DNA of 64,000 bases, taken from Gimesia aquarii. GTDB lineage: Bacteria > Planctomycetota > Planctomycetia > Planctomycetales > Planctomycetaceae. The notes under the pieces were generated by a model. That model saw nothing but the letters and a program-made list of their open reading frames with translations. It did no database searches and had not been told where the DNA came from. The stretch spans positions 5,981,800 through 6,045,799 of the forward strand of contig NZ_CP037920.1 in assembly GCF_007748195.1 (NCBI RefSeq). The letters run 5' to 3'. The position numbers were made by a program, and so were the translations under genes. This document shows, piece after piece, positions 4,838 through 54,239 of this stretch (positions within the stretch are counted from its first letter, which is position 1; each line of letters starts with the position of its first letter).

Positions 4838-7288
4838 ATGGATACGATTGAGATAAAATCGAATCAGTCAAACAAGCATTTCTCTGAACACGATGCAGAG
4901 CAAATGGCTTTGGAGTTGAATCTCTCCTCACAGCAAATTCTCAATGTGATTGCATTGCTGGATGAAGGGAATACGGTTCCCTTTATTACACGCTACCGAA
5001 AAGAACGAACTGGCAATCTGGATGAAGTTCAGATTCGCGATATTCAAAAGCGGGTACAATCAAAACGACAAATTTGGGAACGTGCTTCCACAATCCTGCG
5101 TTTAATTGAAGCACAACAACAACTCACTCCTGAGTTAAAAGCAGAAATCGAAAAAGCCGATACACTCAAACGTCTTGAAGATCTATATCGCCCCTATCGT
5201 CCCAAAAGAACCTCCCGTGCCGCGACTGCCAGAAAGCGTGGTTTCGAACCATTGGCTGATGCGATCTGGAAAGGTGACGCTCACATTGAGGATCTCTCAA
5301 AAGAAGCGTTAAAATATACGAAAGGTGAAGAAGGAGCCCGCACAACGGATGAGGTATTAAAGGGGGCTGCTGACATCCTGGCGGAAAAGATTGGTGAAGA
5401 TGCCGACGTACGTGAAATCTCGCGCAAGATTGCCTGGAAATCGGGACGTCTTGTTGCGAATGCCACCAAGAACGCTGAAGAGTCTGGTCAGGAATATCGC
5501 GATTACTTTAAGTTCTCAGAGCATGTTGTCAAGGTGCCTCATCATCGCACATTAGCGATGAACAGAGGAGAAAAGTCAGGCGCACTGCGCGTCCGCTTTG
5601 AATGGGACGAAGAGTCTGCCTGCACATCAATCGCCCGCCAATTGAATTTAAGTCATCATCGCTTTGCAAAATTTCTGACACAGGTGATCAACGACGCGCA
5701 ACAACGTTTGATCCTGCCCAGCCTCGAACGCGAAATCCGCCGCGAGCTAACCGAAAAAGCAGAAAAACATGCTGTTTCCGTTTTTGCCAGTAACCTAAAA
5801 AACTTACTGCTCCAGCCTCCCTTGCGAGGCGAACGCATCCTGGCCATCGATCCCGGATTACGAACCGGCTGCAAACTCGCAGTACTTGACGAACTGGGAA
5901 ATTGCCTGGCGAATGACTTGGTATATGTCACGGGTTCTGCAGAGAAAAAAGATTATGCACGCAACAAATTAGCTGAGTTCATGCAGGAACACGAATGCAA
6001 ACTGGTTGCCATTGGTAACGGCACTGCTTGCCGCGAAACGGAAGAAATCATTACAGAGATGATCGAGCAGAACTTACCCGAAGCACGATATTTAATCGTG
6101 AACGAAGCGGGGGCCAGCATCTATTCTGCCAGCCCGGTGGCACGTGAAGAATTCCCCGACCTGGATGCGACAATCAGAGGTACCATTTCTATCGGGCGAC
6201 GATTACAGGATCCTTTGAGTGAACTGGTAAAAATCGATCCTCAACATCTGGGCGTCGGCATGTATCAACACGATGTCAATTCGAAGCGTCTTAAAGAATC
6301 ACTGGATGAGGTGATTGAATCGTGTGTTAATTATGTCGGCGTGAATCTGAATAACGCCAGTGCGTCATTACTGAGACATGTTTCAGGTATGAATCAATTG
6401 ATCGCCAGACGAATCACCGAATGGCGCGACAATCACGGTTCTTTTCTGAATCGAAAACAACTTCTCGATGTCGCTGGAATTGGGGAAGCCACTTTTACAC
6501 AAGCAGCTGGTTTTTTGAAAATTGATGAAGGCGATGAACCTCTCGATTCGACCTGGATTCACCCAGAGAGTTATGAACATGCTCACAAAGTTCTCACACA
6601 ACTCGATCTACCGCAAGACAGCCTGAAAACGTCAGCCAACGATCGCGCTGCGATTATTGAAAAGGTCTCTCAGGTAGACAAAACGCAATTGAGTGAAAGT
6701 CTCAAGATTGGCTTACCAACTCTGGAAGATATTCTGGAGGCGATTGGAAAACCAAGGCGCGATCCCCGTTCCGACTTACCCGGACCAATTTTCAAGAAAG
6801 GAGTTTTAAAACTTGAACAACTGGTCAAAGACATGGAGTTGCAGGGAACCATTCTGAACGTCGTTGATTTTGGTGCGTTTGTCGATGTTGGTTTAAAAGA
6901 CAGCGCACTCATTCATGTGAGCGAAATGGCTACTCACTTCATTGAAAATCCCTATCAGTTTGTATCCGTGGGTGATGTGATTACCGCCTGGGTTTTGGGT
7001 GTAGATCTGGAACGGCGCCGGGTGTCTTTGACACTGATCAAACCAGGCACGGATCGCCAATCGAAAAAAGAATCCTTTTCGAAACCGAAGGCTCCTCAAA
7101 AACAGTTCGACAAAAAAAAGACTACTCCCCCTGGATCGAGTCAAACTGAGCAGAGACCCAAAAAGAAACGAAGTCCGAAAAAGAAGAAGCCTCCTGCGGC
7201 TAAACTTTCGGATGAAATGAAATCGGGCGAGCAGCCATTACAAGGTTTCGATCAATTGAAAGCACTTTGGAACCAGAAAAAGAAATAG
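4838..7288 (+). CDS. tex: Tex-type RNA-binding transcription accessory protein
   Basis: The 816-residue protein shows the full Tex architecture: an N-terminal helical region (VIALLDEGNTVPFITRYRKE, around residue 38), an RNase H/YqgF-like domain beginning ERILAIDPGLRTGCK (about 330), helix-hairpin-helix motifs (LLDVAGIGEATFTQAAGFL, about 545) and an S1 RNA-binding domain (about 665-735, GTILNVVDFGAFVDVGLKDS). The C-terminal tail is very rich in Lys and Pro (KKKRSPKKKKPP), longer than in the Escherichia coli homologue. Tex proteins bind nucleic acid and influence transcription and virulence-gene expression; the exact role is unsettled. thpR follows 44 bases downstream in the same direction and is probably co-transcribed. 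Confidence 0.95.
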   Translation: MDTIEIKSNQSNKHFSEHDAEQMALELNLSSQQILNVIALLDEGNTVPFITRYRKERTGNLDEVQIRDIQKRVQSKRQIWERASTILRLIEAQQQLTPELKAEIEKADTLKRLEDLYRPYRPKRTSRAATARKRGFEPLADAIWKGDAHIEDLSKEALKYTKGEEGARTTDEVLKGAADILAEKIGEDADVREISRKIAWKSGRLVANATKNAEESGQEYRDYFKFSEHVVKVPHHRTLAMNRGEKSGALRVRFEWDEESACTSIARQLNLSHHRFAKFLTQVINDAQQRLILPSLEREIRRELTEKAEKHAVSVFASNLKNLLLQPPLRGERILAIDPGLRTGCKLAVLDELGNCLANDLVYVTGSAEKKDYARNKLAEFMQEHECKLVAIGNGTACRETEEIITEMIEQNLPEARYLIVNEAGASIYSASPVAREEFPDLDATIRGTISIGRRLQDPLSELVKIDPQHLGVGMYQHDVNSKRLKESLDEVIESCVNYVGVNLNNASASLLRHVSGMNQLIARRITEWRDNHGSFLNRKQLLDVAGIGEATFTQAAGFLKIDEGDEPLDSTWIHPESYEHAHKVLTQLDLPQDSLKTSANDRAAIIEKVSQVDKTQLSESLKIGLPTLEDILEAIGKPRRDPRSDLPGPIFKKGVLKLEQLVKDMELQGTILNVVDFGAFVDVGLKDSALIHVSEMATHFIENPYQFVSVGDVITAWVLGVDLERRRVSLTLIKPGTDRQSKKESFSKPKAPQKQFDKKKTTPPGSSQTEQRPKKKRSPKKKKPPAAKLSDEMKSGEQPLQGFDQLKALWNQKKK

Positions 7289-47822: not shown

Positions 47823-50444
47823 ATGACTCAAATCAAGAGGTTATCACAAACGCTTCCCGTAAGTTACCTTCTCCTTACATACTGGGGAAGAATCAGTCGT
47901 CTTTCCTACTTGAATGCTCAACTCTTCATCTGGCTCACATTTTACATTCTTTTTAATATTATTGATTATCTGCTGGGTTATTCTTTTACGATTATCATTT
48001 ACCCACTTCTGTACTGGGTGTTGTTTTGCACTGCTGCAAAACGTTTGCATGATACAAACATATCGAGCTGGTTTTTGCTGGCAATGCTGATCCCGATTAT
48101 TGGCCCTTTGTGGTTATTCTATCGATTGGTGTTGAAGAGGAGTTTTCGTCAAGATAATAAATACGGAACGGTTCCCGGTTCTACAGAAGATTATTTAACT
48201 AACGATGATGCGCAAGAAATTCCTCTTCTAAAAACAGATGAACGGATTGTGAATGATGTAACAGGATTAAACCCGATTATTGTTTCTCAAGTTATCAAAC
48301 CTCAAACGATTGAGGAGATACAACATCTGGTCAAATCAACTAACCGAGCAATCTCTGTGGGAGGTGGTCGATTTAGCATGGGGGGGCAAACTGCCAGTCA
48401 CCAAAGTTTGCATATCGACTTGCGTGGTATGAACAATGTTATTGAGTTCTCAAAAGAAAACAAAACAATCAAAGTACAAGCAGGGATTCGCTGGTGTGAT
48501 ATTCAGCAGAATATTGATGAGCACGATTTAAGCATCAAAATTATGCAAACATATGCGAACTTTACGGTGGGAGGTTCGTTGAGCGTGAATGCTCATGGCC
48601 GATATATGGGGCAGGGGCCGTTGATTCTGTCGGTCAATTCGATAGACATTGTTTTAGCAGACGGATCGCTGGTGCATGCAACTCCTGATGAAAACTCGGA
48701 GATATTTTACGGGGCGATTGGTGGCTACAACGGCCTGGGCATTATCGTTCAGGCAGAATTGCAATTATCAGACAATGTGAAAGTAAAAAGAGTATTGAAG
48801 AAAATGCCTCGCAATGAATACCACGACTATTTCACAGCAAATATCAGAGATAATCCCAAAGCGGTTTTTCATAATGCAGATATGTACCCGCCACACTACT
48901 TAAAGCTAAACTCAGGAACGTGGGAAGAGACTTCCGATAAACTGACTGTCGCAACACGTTTGATGCCGTTGAAAGATTCTTATCCGGTTGAACGATATTT
49001 TTTATGGGCATTTTCTGAGACACCATTTGGAAAATGGAGACGTGAACATATTATTGAGCCGATCTTCTTCTTCAAAAAACGAGTGCATTGGAAAAATTAT
49101 GAAGCAGGGTACGACGTTGCAGAGCTAGAACCAAAATCAAGAATAGACCAGACTTATGTTTTGCTCGAATATTTTGTTCCGGTCAATCAGTTTGAGAAAT
49201 TTTCTGGATTGATGGCAGAGATATTTCAACGGCATCGAGTGAATGTTATTAACGTTTCGGTCAGGCATGCTCAAGCAGACCCCGGCAGTTATCTGGCGTG
49301 GGCACGTGAAGAAGTTTTTGCGTTTGTTATTTATTACAAGCAAAGCACAGAAGAGAATGCCAGACATGCTGTTGCTGTTTGGACAAGAGAGTTAATTGAT
49401 GCAGTCATTTCAGTCAATGGGACGTATTATCTGCCTTATCAGGTACATGCAACCCCTCAGCAATTCCACGTTGCCTACCCCAATGCAAAAAAGCTGTTTG
49501 CATTGAAAGACAAATTTGACCCCAACTTCAAATTTAGAAATATTATTTGGGACACCTATTACAAAACGGAGAAGAAGATGATGGTAGAAACAGAATCAGA
49601 ATTTATTAAAGTGTTCTCAGACACAAAGTGGAGTGACAAATTTTATAAGTTTTTACAGGTCATTTTCCATCTTTATCCTGAAGATAAATTTCACCATCTG
49701 ATCAAAAAATGCTGTGAAGAAAAAACAGACGATGAATCGATTTACAAATTAGTTCAAAGCAAACTTCCACAAATCAAACCTTTTTTTTCTCTACTTACAT
49801 TGGCTTTGCCCGCATTAAAAAAACAAAAAAAAGAGATGACAAAACAGACGCTACAAATACTAGACAACAAAGCCCCCCTCAACGGCTACTTGGAAATTGG
49901 CTCCACGGGGCGGTACATCGGTCATTTAAAAAAACACCATTCAGTCAATGGAAACATATATTTAATGAATGATCGTGCTCCTGATAATTCAATTGGTGAA
50001 ATTTTTGAAAGAGGTCAACTCAAGCAAATTGGAACATTTTTTGACCTTGATTATGATCCGATTAAAGAAGAACAAATACCAAGCGAGAGCTTAGATGTTG
50101 TCACTTGCTTTATCGGGTTACATCACTGTCCCGAGGAAAAACTGGAAGCCTTTGTGAAATCGATTGTCCGTATTTTGCGACCAGGTGGAAAATTCATCAT
50201 GCGCGATCATGATGTGACAACTCCAGAGATGGCGACATTTGTTTCTCTTGTACATACCGTTTTTAATTTGGGATTGAATGAAACATGGGAATTCAATAAT
50301 GATGAATACCGTAGTTTTAAATCGATTGATGACTGGTGTCAGTATTTGTCTCAATTTGGGTTTGTAGATTCTGGTAAGCGTATTTTGCAAGAAAACGATC
50401 CTTCGGACAATACTTTAGTTCTACTTACGAAAGAGTCCACATGA
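47823..50444 (+). CDS. DUF805 - FAD-linked oxidase - methyltransferase fusion
   Basis: The 873-residue protein joins three modules. Residues about 18-115 are a DUF805 membrane domain (YWGRISRLSYLNAQLFIWL, AAKRLHDTNISSWFLLAMLI). About 146-575 form a VAO/PCMH-type FAD oxidase with GGGRFSMGGQTASHQSL, GGSLSVNAHGRYMGQGPL, where the His could link FAD, and an ALO-like C-terminus (LKDKFDPNFKFRNIIW). About 680-865 form a class I SAM methyltransferase (GYLEIGSTGRYIGHL, LDVVTCFIGLHHCPEEKLEA, RILRPGGKFIMRDHD). The ATGA overlap with the next gene implies coupled translation. Low GC. It is membrane-bound and probably oxidises then methylates (or the reverse) a hydrophobic substrate; which one is unknown. 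Confidence 0.85.
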   Translation: MTQIKRLSQTLPVSYLLLTYWGRISRLSYLNAQLFIWLTFYILFNIIDYLLGYSFTIIIYPLLYWVLFCTAAKRLHDTNISSWFLLAMLIPIIGPLWLFYRLVLKRSFRQDNKYGTVPGSTEDYLTNDDAQEIPLLKTDERIVNDVTGLNPIIVSQVIKPQTIEEIQHLVKSTNRAISVGGGRFSMGGQTASHQSLHIDLRGMNNVIEFSKENKTIKVQAGIRWCDIQQNIDEHDLSIKIMQTYANFTVGGSLSVNAHGRYMGQGPLILSVNSIDIVLADGSLVHATPDENSEIFYGAIGGYNGLGIIVQAELQLSDNVKVKRVLKKMPRNEYHDYFTANIRDNPKAVFHNADMYPPHYLKLNSGTWEETSDKLTVATRLMPLKDSYPVERYFLWAFSETPFGKWRREHIIEPIFFFKKRVHWKNYEAGYDVAELEPKSRIDQTYVLLEYFVPVNQFEKFSGLMAEIFQRHRVNVINVSVRHAQADPGSYLAWAREEVFAFVIYYKQSTEENARHAVAVWTRELIDAVISVNGTYYLPYQVHATPQQFHVAYPNAKKLFALKDKFDPNFKFRNIIWDTYYKTEKKMMVETESEFIKVFSDTKWSDKFYKFLQVIFHLYPEDKFHHLIKKCCEEKTDDESIYKLVQSKLPQIKPFFSLLTLALPALKKQKKEMTKQTLQILDNKAPLNGYLEIGSTGRYIGHLKKHHSVNGNIYLMNDRAPDNSIGEIFERGQLKQIGTFFDLDYDPIKEEQIPSESLDVVTCFIGLHHCPEEKLEAFVKSIVRILRPGGKFIMRDHDVTTPEMATFVSLVHTVFNLGLNETWEFNNDEYRSFKSIDDWCQYLSQFGFVDSGKRILQENDPSDNTLVLLTKEST

Positions 50445-51541
50445 AAAGACTCACAATATTTAATCTAATCTGTTTAGTATTAGCAGCATTTATCTTCCTC
50501 TTAAAAGGGGATGATCAATCGACAAACCTGGCAGGTGTGGGGCTGGTTGTTAATAAAGCATGGCTTGTTGAAAACAAAAACGTGCAAACTCCTGAGCCAG
50601 ACAAAAGACCTGCTGACCAGACTTTTTTAACCTATCCAGAATGGTTTTTGGTCTTCAGCCCTGTCGAACAAGCGGATTACTATCAATCACACACTTCAAC
50701 AACATTCCCAATTATCAAACATATTCACCAGGTTTGGGATGGTTACGAAGTTGTTAGCGATCAAATTGAAGAAGATTTTGAATATAACGACGACTACCAT
50801 ACCATGATTAAGGTGATCAGCATCAGCACAACAATTGAATATGGATTAAAAGCCTGGTACGAAAAAATTGTGGGCAGGGTGACAGACACTCATCCCCATG
50901 AAGCACTTACCGAGGAAGACCAATTTAACGGTAAGTTCACTCGTGATTACTCAAATTTTTTAGGAGCACAACCCTGGTACGAATTTGACTTCACCTCTCG
51001 ATTAATCAGCTTATGGACGGAAACAAGTTTTTTTGGTCCTCATTTAATGAGAAAGGCAGAAAGAAGATACTTTTTGACAACCGAGTTGTTATGCAAAATT
51101 GCATATGCAAAGTTGATCAAAATGGGAACGCAGTCAATGTACGAAAAACCGGTTCTCACGACTGTTATTGTTCTCGATAAATCGCCTGAAGGAATTAAAG
51201 GTGATTCTGCTATTGAAGAGATTGGTAAAACAGAAGGCGGTGACACGATAGTGAGAGTTCCCCGATATGCTGAATTTACTCCTGCAGCAGTTCAGCTTGC
51301 CAAGGCTGGTTTATCATTTAAAGAAATTGCAGGCAATAATTCAGCAATTTTGCTAACGGTACTTACCCCGCAAGAATACAAGTTTAAAGATGAAACTGTC
51401 CAGGTGATTTTTGAACAACTAATCACAACAAAGGAAAACCAAAAAAGAGTTGCGGTTGTTACCACAGTTCCTCATCTTAGTGCTCTGCTTGTTCAACTTG
51501 TGGACAACAACATTACAATTGAGCATATTTATGATTATTGA
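50441..51541 (+). CDS. Membrane-anchored partner of the FAD-oxidase fusion
   Basis: The 366-residue protein has a single N-terminal hydrophobic segment (LTIFNLICLVLAAFIFLL), either anchor or signal, and a large extracytoplasmic domain with an FLTYPEWFLVFSPVEQADYY motif, several aromatic-acidic patches (EEDFEYNDDYHTMIKVISIS) and no catalytic signature that could be named. Its ATG overlaps the stop of the upstream gene (ATGA), so the two work together. No family name could be given. Confidence 0.65.
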   Translation: MKRLTIFNLICLVLAAFIFLLKGDDQSTNLAGVGLVVNKAWLVENKNVQTPEPDKRPADQTFLTYPEWFLVFSPVEQADYYQSHTSTTFPIIKHIHQVWDGYEVVSDQIEEDFEYNDDYHTMIKVISISTTIEYGLKAWYEKIVGRVTDTHPHEALTEEDQFNGKFTRDYSNFLGAQPWYEFDFTSRLISLWTETSFFGPHLMRKAERRYFLTTELLCKIAYAKLIKMGTQSMYEKPVLTTVIVLDKSPEGIKGDSAIEEIGKTEGGDTIVRVPRYAEFTPAAVQLAKAGLSFKEIAGNNSAILLTVLTPQEYKFKDETVQVIFEQLITTKENQKRVAVVTTVPHLSALLVQLVDNNITIEHIYDY

Positions 51542-51559: not shown

Positions 51560-51581
51560 AAAGGGGTCAGACCCACTGCTG
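51560..51581. repeat. Dispersed GGGGTCAGACCC repeat
   Basis: AAGGGGTCAGACCCACTGCT, itself a short palindrome (GGGT/ACCC), lies within larger arms AAACAG and CTGTTT. It follows the FAD-oxidase operon and could double as a weak transcription end. Confidence 0.5.
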
Positions 51582-51748: not shown

Positions 51749-52822
51749 ATGGGTGATCATTATCCGACGGTGCGTTTGGCTGCAGCGCAGGCTTCACCGG
51801 TTTTCTTAGACCGTGAGCGGTCTACTGAGAAGGCCGTGGCCCTCATCGCCGAGGCAGCTCAACAGAAGGCTCAACTTATCGCGTTCGGCGAGGCCTGGTT
51901 ACCTGGCTATCCATGGTGGATCTATCTGGGATCACCCATGTATTCAGCCCCATTTACACAACAGCTCTATGCCAACGCAGTGAAGATTCCGAGCGACACG
52001 ATCACGCAATTATGCGACGCTGCCCGCGAGAATCATATTTACGTCGTGATGGGACTGACCGAACTCTCCGGCGGGAGTCTCTATCTGGCTCAGATCACGA
52101 TTGCACCGTCGGGAGAATTGATCGGTCACCGCAGAAAGCTCAAGCCAACGCATGCGGAGCGTACCATCTGGGGAGAGGGTGATGGCAGCGATCTGTTCGT
52201 CTTGCCCACGGACCTTGGCCAGGTCGGCTCGCTGAATTGCTGGGAGCACTTGCAGCCACTCACTCGTTACGCGATGAACTGCTTCAACGAACAAATCCAC
52301 ATTGCCGCCTGGCCCGCCTTCTGTCTTTATACAGGAACCTTGTACTCGTTTAGTGGCGAAGCCAGCGTTGCCATCTCGCGCAGCTACGCACTGGAAACGC
52401 AGACCTTTGTGATTCATGTTGGCGGGTTGTGTGATCAGGCGACACTCGACCTGCTCGCCGACGACGATGAGAAACGCACGCTGCTGCGTGTCGGCGGAGG
52501 GATCTCTCAGGTAATCGATCCCAACGGGGAGACGATTGCAGGTCCGCTGGGCGATAACGAAGAGGGAATCCTCATCGCCGATTGCGAAATGTCGAAGATT
52601 CCTGCCGCCAAGATGGCAAACGACCCGGCCGGCCATTACGCGCGTGCCGATGTCACGCAGCTACTACTGAACCGAAGCCCCCGGCGACCGGTGGTTTTTA
52701 AGGACCCGGAATTTCAATCGCTCGCTGCTGATAGACTTCACGGTAACATTGCGGACGACGATGATTCTGCCGAGGTCCAACAAAACGAGTTCTCTGCGGA
52801 AGAGTCCGAGAAGAACAAGTAA
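51749..52822 (+). CDS. Nitrilase (carbon-nitrogen hydrolase family)
   Basis: The 357-residue enzyme carries the nitrilase triad: Glu48 in IAFGEAWLPGYP, Lys130 in GHRRKLKPTHAER, and Cys164 in GSLNCWEHLQPL. The CWEH signature is typical of true nitrilases (EC 3.5.5.1), which turn nitriles into acids and ammonia, rather than amidases. Length and order are normal, with a short acidic tail. GGAGG lies seven bases before the ATG. It is clearly richer in GC than the AT-rich genes on both sides, suggesting separate acquisition. Confidence 0.92.
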   Translation: MGDHYPTVRLAAAQASPVFLDRERSTEKAVALIAEAAQQKAQLIAFGEAWLPGYPWWIYLGSPMYSAPFTQQLYANAVKIPSDTITQLCDAARENHIYVVMGLTELSGGSLYLAQITIAPSGELIGHRRKLKPTHAERTIWGEGDGSDLFVLPTDLGQVGSLNCWEHLQPLTRYAMNCFNEQIHIAAWPAFCLYTGTLYSFSGEASVAISRSYALETQTFVIHVGGLCDQATLDLLADDDEKRTLLRVGGGISQVIDPNGETIAGPLGDNEEGILIADCEMSKIPAAKMANDPAGHYARADVTQLLLNRSPRRPVVFKDPEFQSLAADRLHGNIADDDDSAEVQQNEFSAEESEKNK

Positions 52823-53408: not shown

Positions 53409-54239
53409 TTGTACGAACGATTTTCCAACCGAGCAAAAAAAGTGATAAACCTGGCTCACAAGGAAAGCCAACAGTCCAATCACGAACACATTAGTACCGA
53501 AGATATTTTGTTAGGTTTGACTAGTGAAGGATCGGGAGTTGCTGCCGTCACTCTTAAAAATTTTAATCTTACTTTTCGTCGTATCCGAATGGAAATTAAA
53601 AAACATAAACAAGCGGTGCCTCGAGCATCAGACGAGAAGAAAGTCATCGAAAACGCGATGGAAGAAGCCCGTCTTCTTAAGCACAACTACGTGGGAACAG
53701 AGCATTTACTCTTAGGGCTTTTGCGGGAAGAAGATTGTTTAACAGTTAAAGTTTTACGTGACCTGAGACTGAGTATTGAAGAAATTCGGAATGAAGTATT
53801 GAATCTCCTCGATCTGCGAAATGTTTATGAACGATTTACTAACCAAGCAAAAAAAGTGATGAACCTGGCTTACCACGAAAGCCAACTGTTCGGTCACGAA
53901 CACATTGGTACCGACGATATTTTGTTAGGTTTGATTAGTGAGGGATCGGGACTTGCTGCCGTGATTCTTAATAACTGTAATCTTACTTTTCGTCGTATCC
54001 GAATGGAAATTAAAAAACACAAACAAGTGGTGCCTCAAGCATCAGAGGTGAAGAAAGTCGTCGAAAACGCGATGGAAGAGGTTCGAACCCTTAAGTATAA
54101 CTATTTAGGAACTGAGCATTTACTCCTAGGGCTTTTGCGGGAAGAAGATTGTTTAGCAGTTACAGTTTTACAGGACCTGGGACTGAGTATTGAAGAAATT
54201 CGGAATGAAGTATTGAATTTCCTCGGTCATGGTTTGTAA
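53409..54239 (+). CDS. Protein of two tandem Clp-N (ClpC/ClpA N-terminal) domains
   Basis: The 276-residue protein consists of two near-identical copies (about 138 residues each) of the Clp N-terminal repeat domain. Each has YERFxNxAKKVxNLAxxES, HEHIxTxDILLGLxSEGSG, then YVGTEHLLLGLLREEDCL or its match, and IEEIRNEVLN. There is no AAA module, so it is not ClpC itself. Clp-N domains bind adaptors and substrates for ClpC/ClpA. The start is a TTG with GAGGTG closely upstream. A terminator follows. A stand-alone double domain might act as an adaptor or decoy for ClpC; this is inferred. Confidence 0.9.
   Translation: MYERFSNRAKKVINLAHKESQQSNHEHISTEDILLGLTSEGSGVAAVTLKNFNLTFRRIRMEIKKHKQAVPRASDEKKVIENAMEEARLLKHNYVGTEHLLLGLLREEDCLTVKVLRDLRLSIEEIRNEVLNLLDLRNVYERFTNQAKKVMNLAYHESQLFGHEHIGTDDILLGLISEGSGLAAVILNNCNLTFRRIRMEIKKHKQVVPQASEVKKVVENAMEEVRTLKYNYLGTEHLLLGLLREEDCLAVTVLQDLGLSIEEIRNEVLNFLGHGL

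Follow-up and report, generated by a model that had tools for sequence, protein, structure and literature searches.

A flavoenzyme of the VAO type and a partner protein very likely form an undescribed enzyme system, since both travel together in dozens of bacteria. What is new here is the partner family and its linkage, the VAO flavoenzyme itself being of an already known kind. In the stretch of DNA analysed (64,000 nucleotides of Gimesia aquarii, the window in what follows), the pair is encoded by two genes on the plus strand. The first (47823..50444) is one open reading frame of 873 aa joining a DUF805 membrane domain with about three hydrophobic segments (aa 19-115, 47877..48167, from Pfam and hydropathy), an FAD domain with an ALO-like C-terminal part (about aa 135-585, 48225..49577) and a methyltransferase (MT) module of the class I SAM type (about aa 586-873, 49578..50441), in which a helical N-terminal part is followed by a Rossmann fold. 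The original prediction had proposed such a union of membrane domain, VAO-type FAD domain and SAM methyltransferase in one protein, and both the reading frame and Pfam confirm it, with DUF805 scoring 49.1 bits (9e-13, cut-off 25.7) and FAD_binding_4 77.6 bits over aa 156-286 (1e-21, cut-off 26.4). FAD_binding_4 was above the Pfam cut-off in all 26 relatives, placing the family in the VAO/PCMH flavoprotein superfamily. The second gene, the partner (50441..51541), overlaps the first as predicted, its start sharing the ATGA at 50441..50444 with the stop codon of the fusion gene.

The partner family and its linkage to the flavoenzyme

A scan of GTDB genomes returned 157 partner relatives, from which 80 loci were kept and annotated by script. 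With the count restricted to the 60 loci having at least 3 kb of flank on each side, and a member of the FAD family taken as a match at E<=1e-20, the same FAD subfamily was present at 59, the sole exception (L011) being adjoined by more distant FAD proteins. The linkage was seen in Alphaproteobacteria, Gammaproteobacteria, Bacteroidota, Planctomycetota and Acidobacteriota. A rough chance figure for it would be a few per cent, reckoned from the 7.4 Mb window genome and its dozen first-look candidates. A survey of the partner in other genomes had been suggested as a check, and the linkage proved strongly conserved, much more so than could have been known when the prediction was made.

In a Kangiellaceae genome (L014) FAD protein and partner are fused into one 813-aa protein, the only such fusion found. 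DUF805 is fused to the FAD domain in four genomes (the window, L009, L012 and L103), with DUF4383-like genes replacing it in position in alphaproteobacterial, Acidobacteria and Chloroflexi loci; most roseobacter loci have the order FAD, DUF4383-like membrane protein, partner and small ORF. Given the linkage at 59 of 60 loci, the Kangiellaceae fusion and the occurrence of the MT, fused or separate, in 11 genomes, FAD protein and partner are a conserved core, with a variable membrane piece (DUF805 or DUF4383) and the MT as a clade-specific addition. The DUF805 domain of the window resembles the known small DUF805/DUF4383 membrane proteins in exceeding the Pfam cut-off but differs in being joined to the FAD domain in the window clade; nothing usable on DUF805 or DUF4383 with FAD enzymes was found in the open-access literature. 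Dozens of genomes, culturable roseobacters and Mucilaginibacter among them, have the partner alongside one flavoenzyme subfamily, and as the fusions tell which proteins work together, function is directly testable. A fourth small ORF of about 100 aa follows the partner in L005 (6890-7183) and most roseobacter loci, overlapping it in many and giving no significant Pfam match.

That the partner, of 366 aa, is membrane-anchored and of an unnamed family had also been anticipated, and this is borne out by a single N-terminal hydrophobic helix (aa 4-22, 50450..50506, plus strand, by hydropathy; residues 2-22 in the model) and by the lack of any Pfam or NCBIfam match. Profile searches and a PDB sequence search with the partner likewise gave nothing significant. 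The structure predicted from a 44-row alignment (pLDDT 92.1, pTM 0.88) comprises the N-terminal helix, a helical core (aa 60-233, 50618..51139, plus strand) carrying conserved PEW, YE..GR, PWY and ER motifs in the alignment, and a C-terminal alpha/beta part (aa 240-366, 51158..51538, plus strand). The extreme C-terminus reads EHIYDY (51521..51538, plus strand), with EH[IVL][YHF]DY present in 86 of 89 relatives. Foldseek comparison of the model with the PDB gave zero matches at E<=0.001. No partner relatives were found in viral contigs, PADLOC gave no defence match and BFVD no viral fold match. The partner family thus has neither a name nor a known fold.

The methyltransferase module and its distribution

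The MT module is predicted to be a class I SAM-methyltransferase. A Pfam methyltransferase domain scores 33.8 bits in it (cut-off 21.2), the Methyltransf_11 match in the fusion protein (1e-7) ends at aa 793, and EIGSTGRY (aa 691-698, 49893..49916, plus strand) occupies the SAM-motif-I position and is conserved in MT relatives. The structural model (pLDDT 89.5) is that of a class I methyltransferase with a Rossmann fold. It has 1071 PDB matches at E<=0.001, and most of those listed are SAM-methyltransferases. The model resembles, among other enzymes, the C-methyltransferases CurJ, PsoF, TleD and Coq5; the first matches listed are C-methyltransferases by title or by known function, with O- and N-methyltransferases close behind. 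CurJ, PsoF and Coq5, of the PKS and Coq5 types, are among the best structural matches and share the helical N-terminal part and the Rossmann fold, but at only 12-18% sequence identity and a TM-score of only about 0.5, and the window MT is not in a PKS.

An FAD oxidoreductase followed by a SAM-methyltransferase recalls TmsA/TmsB (BfaA/BfaB) of 10-methyl stearate synthesis, to which the original prediction had likened the window protein. In such a pathway an unsaturated acyl chain would receive a methylene from the MT, to be reduced by the FAD domain, and a membrane location would fit. The difference in module order that had been claimed is no real difference, as BfaA also precedes BfaB (PMC5660069). 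BfaB, however, came from a search that used cfa of E. coli as query (PMC5660069), whereas the window MT is of another family: at E<=0.01 none of eight MT relatives matches PF02353 (CMAS), nor does the window protein at E<=0.1. With DprE1 and GALDH as the closest matches of the FAD domain, kin FAD genes adjoining sugar-type DegT aminotransferases and the MT missing from most members of the FAD-partner core, kinship with TmsA/TmsB is unsupported and fatty-acid methylation of this type scarcely credible. No counterpart of the partner or the membrane domain is known in TmsA/TmsB.

Sought in about 1,000 genomes, the MT was found in 11, in every one beside or fused to this FAD gene and in none away from it. 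The two are fused in six genomes spanning three lineages (the window, G491 (L101) and four Legionella-like genomes, L102, L126, L127 and L128) and separate in five, as the next gene in L009, L012 and L103 and as a divergent neighbour in L014 and L129. These six fusions and five neighbouring pairs support the functional tie between FAD oxidoreductase and methyltransferase proposed at the outset. The partner is present at all MT loci except that of G065 (L129), where FAD is cut off by the contig end; in that genome it follows the leftover FAD piece on another contig (L015). No MT was found in plasmids, and a Legionella lytica plasmid that carries a close FAD gene lacks the MT and shows no obvious partner among its annotated neighbours. 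Since most FAD-partner family members are without the MT, methylation is not essential to the core. Were the FAD and MT modules doing independent jobs and fused or adjacent merely by operon drift, the separate MT genes in five genomes and the many loci lacking an MT would be in keeping, but fusion in three lineages and an MT that never strays from this FAD gene make such drift very unlikely.

At the FAD/MT junction of the window the DNA reads cGGAGaagaagATGATG, a ribosome-binding-site-like sequence with an in-frame start codon (GGAG-N6-ATG, 49568..49580, plus strand, aa 586 being Met), and the separate MT genes of L009 and L012, two Bacteroidota, and of L103, a distant planctomycete, begin at this very point. 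The internal GGAG-N6-ATG is likely to be the remnant or working start of a once-separate MT gene. Together these features make the fusion of the window look young, and free MT may still be translated from the internal start besides the fused form.

In the FAD tree one fully supported clade unites the Legionella lytica FAD gene with the members that bear an MT, all but the long-branched L102, whose placement is weak. Transfer of the genes into the window genome is likely because the partner is absent from 58 relatives and the closest FAD relatives (72%) are in Bacteroidota. Low GC3 by itself proves little on transfer, as other window genes are equally low.

The FAD domain, its kin and the proposed chemistry

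The best matches of the FAD profile in the PDB were DprE1 (8e-33) and then GALDH, L-galactono-1,4-lactone dehydrogenase (1e-31). The ALO-like C-terminus that had been described holds by homology, the ALO C-terminal domain (PF04030) being found in 9 of 26 relatives and also detected in a native planctomycete relative at 2.8e-8, though not by direct detection, as Pfam does not find the domain in the window protein. The GALDH A113G variant in the same profile output fixes the place of the oxygen gatekeeper, at which the window protein has Gln242 (48546..48548, plus strand), aligned with Ala113 of GALDH and invariant in 26 of 26 aligned members. Phe184 (48372..48374, plus strand) occupies the position of the flavin-linking His; across the MT clade this residue is Phe, Tyr or Arg, whereas the remaining members examined all have His. 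A Gly gatekeeper together with the flavin-linking His goes with oxidase activity, dehydrogenases being without both (PMC11099136). With Gln as gatekeeper and Phe in place of His, the window flavoenzyme is thus probably a dehydrogenase with non-covalent FAD rather than the FAD oxidase originally predicted; these rules come from aldonolactone enzymes and may fail when transferred to this FAD family.

GALDH shares with the window clade a non-His flavin site and a non-Gly gatekeeper, yet its gatekeeper is Ala instead of Gln, its gene context is different and the window protein scores 56.8 bits against a cut-off of 458. A sugar-lactone (aldonolactone) oxidase of the vitamin-C type with an unrelated MT tail would account for the ALO domain in a third of the members and for GALDH among the best matches. 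It is nonetheless highly improbable, as NCBIfam TIGR01678 scores 70.9 bits, far under its cut-off of 396.8, the Gly/His pair of the oxidases is absent and the reaction has no place for the conserved partner, MT or DegT. DprE1 (decaprenylphosphoryl-ribose 2'-oxidase), the best match, likewise has the VAO fold but lacks a DUF805 domain, MT or partner of the window type, and the window protein reaches 82.2 bits against the NCBIfam cut-off of 500 for NF053785.

Kin FAD genes that lack both partner and MT are present in the genus and family of the window organism. Two of five examined, L118 and L121 of native planctomycetes, adjoin a DegT aminotransferase, and in L009 and L012 (Bacteroidota) DegT, FAD, MT and partner lie together. 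The window genome itself has an intact DegT gene (G000:C1:64762-65967) beside an FAD remnant of the same family (66059-66631) that keeps residues 319-505 of 513 only (L104 4763-5968 and about 6060-6632, minus strand). DegT enzymes use keto sugars as substrates, and their presence beside kin FAD genes points to a sugar- or cyclitol-like substrate. DprE1 works on a lipid-linked sugar at the membrane, and a similar step leading to an amino sugar or aminocyclitol, perhaps lipid-linked, in which the FAD enzyme makes the keto form, DegT transaminates it and the MT methylates N or O, is possible though rather doubtful. The five FAD-DegT neighbourhoods and the rank of DprE1 speak for it; no DegT adjoins the window genes, however, none was detected in the other partner loci searched besides L009 and L012, and DegT enzymes are cytosolic whereas many of the FAD proteins look exported. 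A C45-type acyltransferase or hydrolase is found near three of the native FAD genes of the genus, those of L117 (by Pfam) and of L120 and L121 (by eye), with a fatty-acid desaturase and a metallo-beta-lactamase-fold protein also near in L117 and L121; with acyltransferase or hydrolase and desaturase near kin FAD genes, a lipid link or lipid substrate is possible.

The explanation that we prefer is a membrane-tethered redox complex encoded by both genes. Its core would be an FAD dehydrogenase, from a VAO subfamily without a name, together with the new-fold partner, and DUF805 and the partner's own helix would serve as membrane anchors. The substrate would be sugar- or polyol-like and possibly lipid-linked; one of its hydroxyls would give a hydride to the flavin, the electrons would leave for an acceptor other than oxygen and the MT module would methylate the oxidised product. 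As a whole we regard this explanation as about evenly balanced between right and wrong. Against it weigh the many members without an MT, the inconsistent topology, the doubtful transfer of the gatekeeper rules and the N- and O-methyltransferases among the nearest folds of the MT. Its modules, fusions and linkage are read directly from the sequence; dehydrogenase rather than oxidase chemistry is inferred, as is methylation by the MT of what the FAD enzyme makes; the sugar- or polyol-like class of the substrate is speculative, as is C-methylation beside the new carbonyl, for which the guess is that a ketone from the FAD enzyme would activate the neighbouring carbon.

Export signals and neighbouring DNA

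Signals were read by eye or regular expression. A strict twin-arginine motif (Tat-like) was present in 59 of 91 FAD proteins and the FAD-partner fusion of L014 has a lipoprotein-type signal, while in L101 and L126 the FAD-MT fusion lacks any signal and the partners of L102 and L128 are without the N-terminal helix. Tat-like signals were also seen on two gammaproteobacterial MTs (L014:108-1058, minus strand; L129:749-1723, plus strand). With signals that differ in this way, topology appears inconsistent between lineages and export of the whole system is no more than a possibility. SAM is generally regarded as restricted to the cytoplasm, and nothing usable on a Tat-exported SAM-methyltransferase was found in the open-access literature. 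A bolder proposal, in which a new-fold partner serves as catalytic or electron-transfer subunit and makes up, with flavoenzyme and MT, a new kind of membrane multi-enzyme for oxidising and methylating a substrate, with methylation outside the cytoplasm in L014 and L129, is unlikely. Such methylation would call for an unknown SAM supply, and exported methyltransferases, if active, would leave it to be explained how SAM gets to the outer side of the membrane.

Just downstream of the partner lies a palindrome-like sequence, GGGGTCAGACCC (window 51563-51574); its 16-base version occurs once in the genome, and as a DNA repeat it was dropped. Further on, window 51749-52822 encodes a nitrilase related to the Nit6803 family (247 bits, under the cut-off of 502.6), and the product of window 53409-54239 has two similar halves resembling, by eye, the Clp N-terminal domain.
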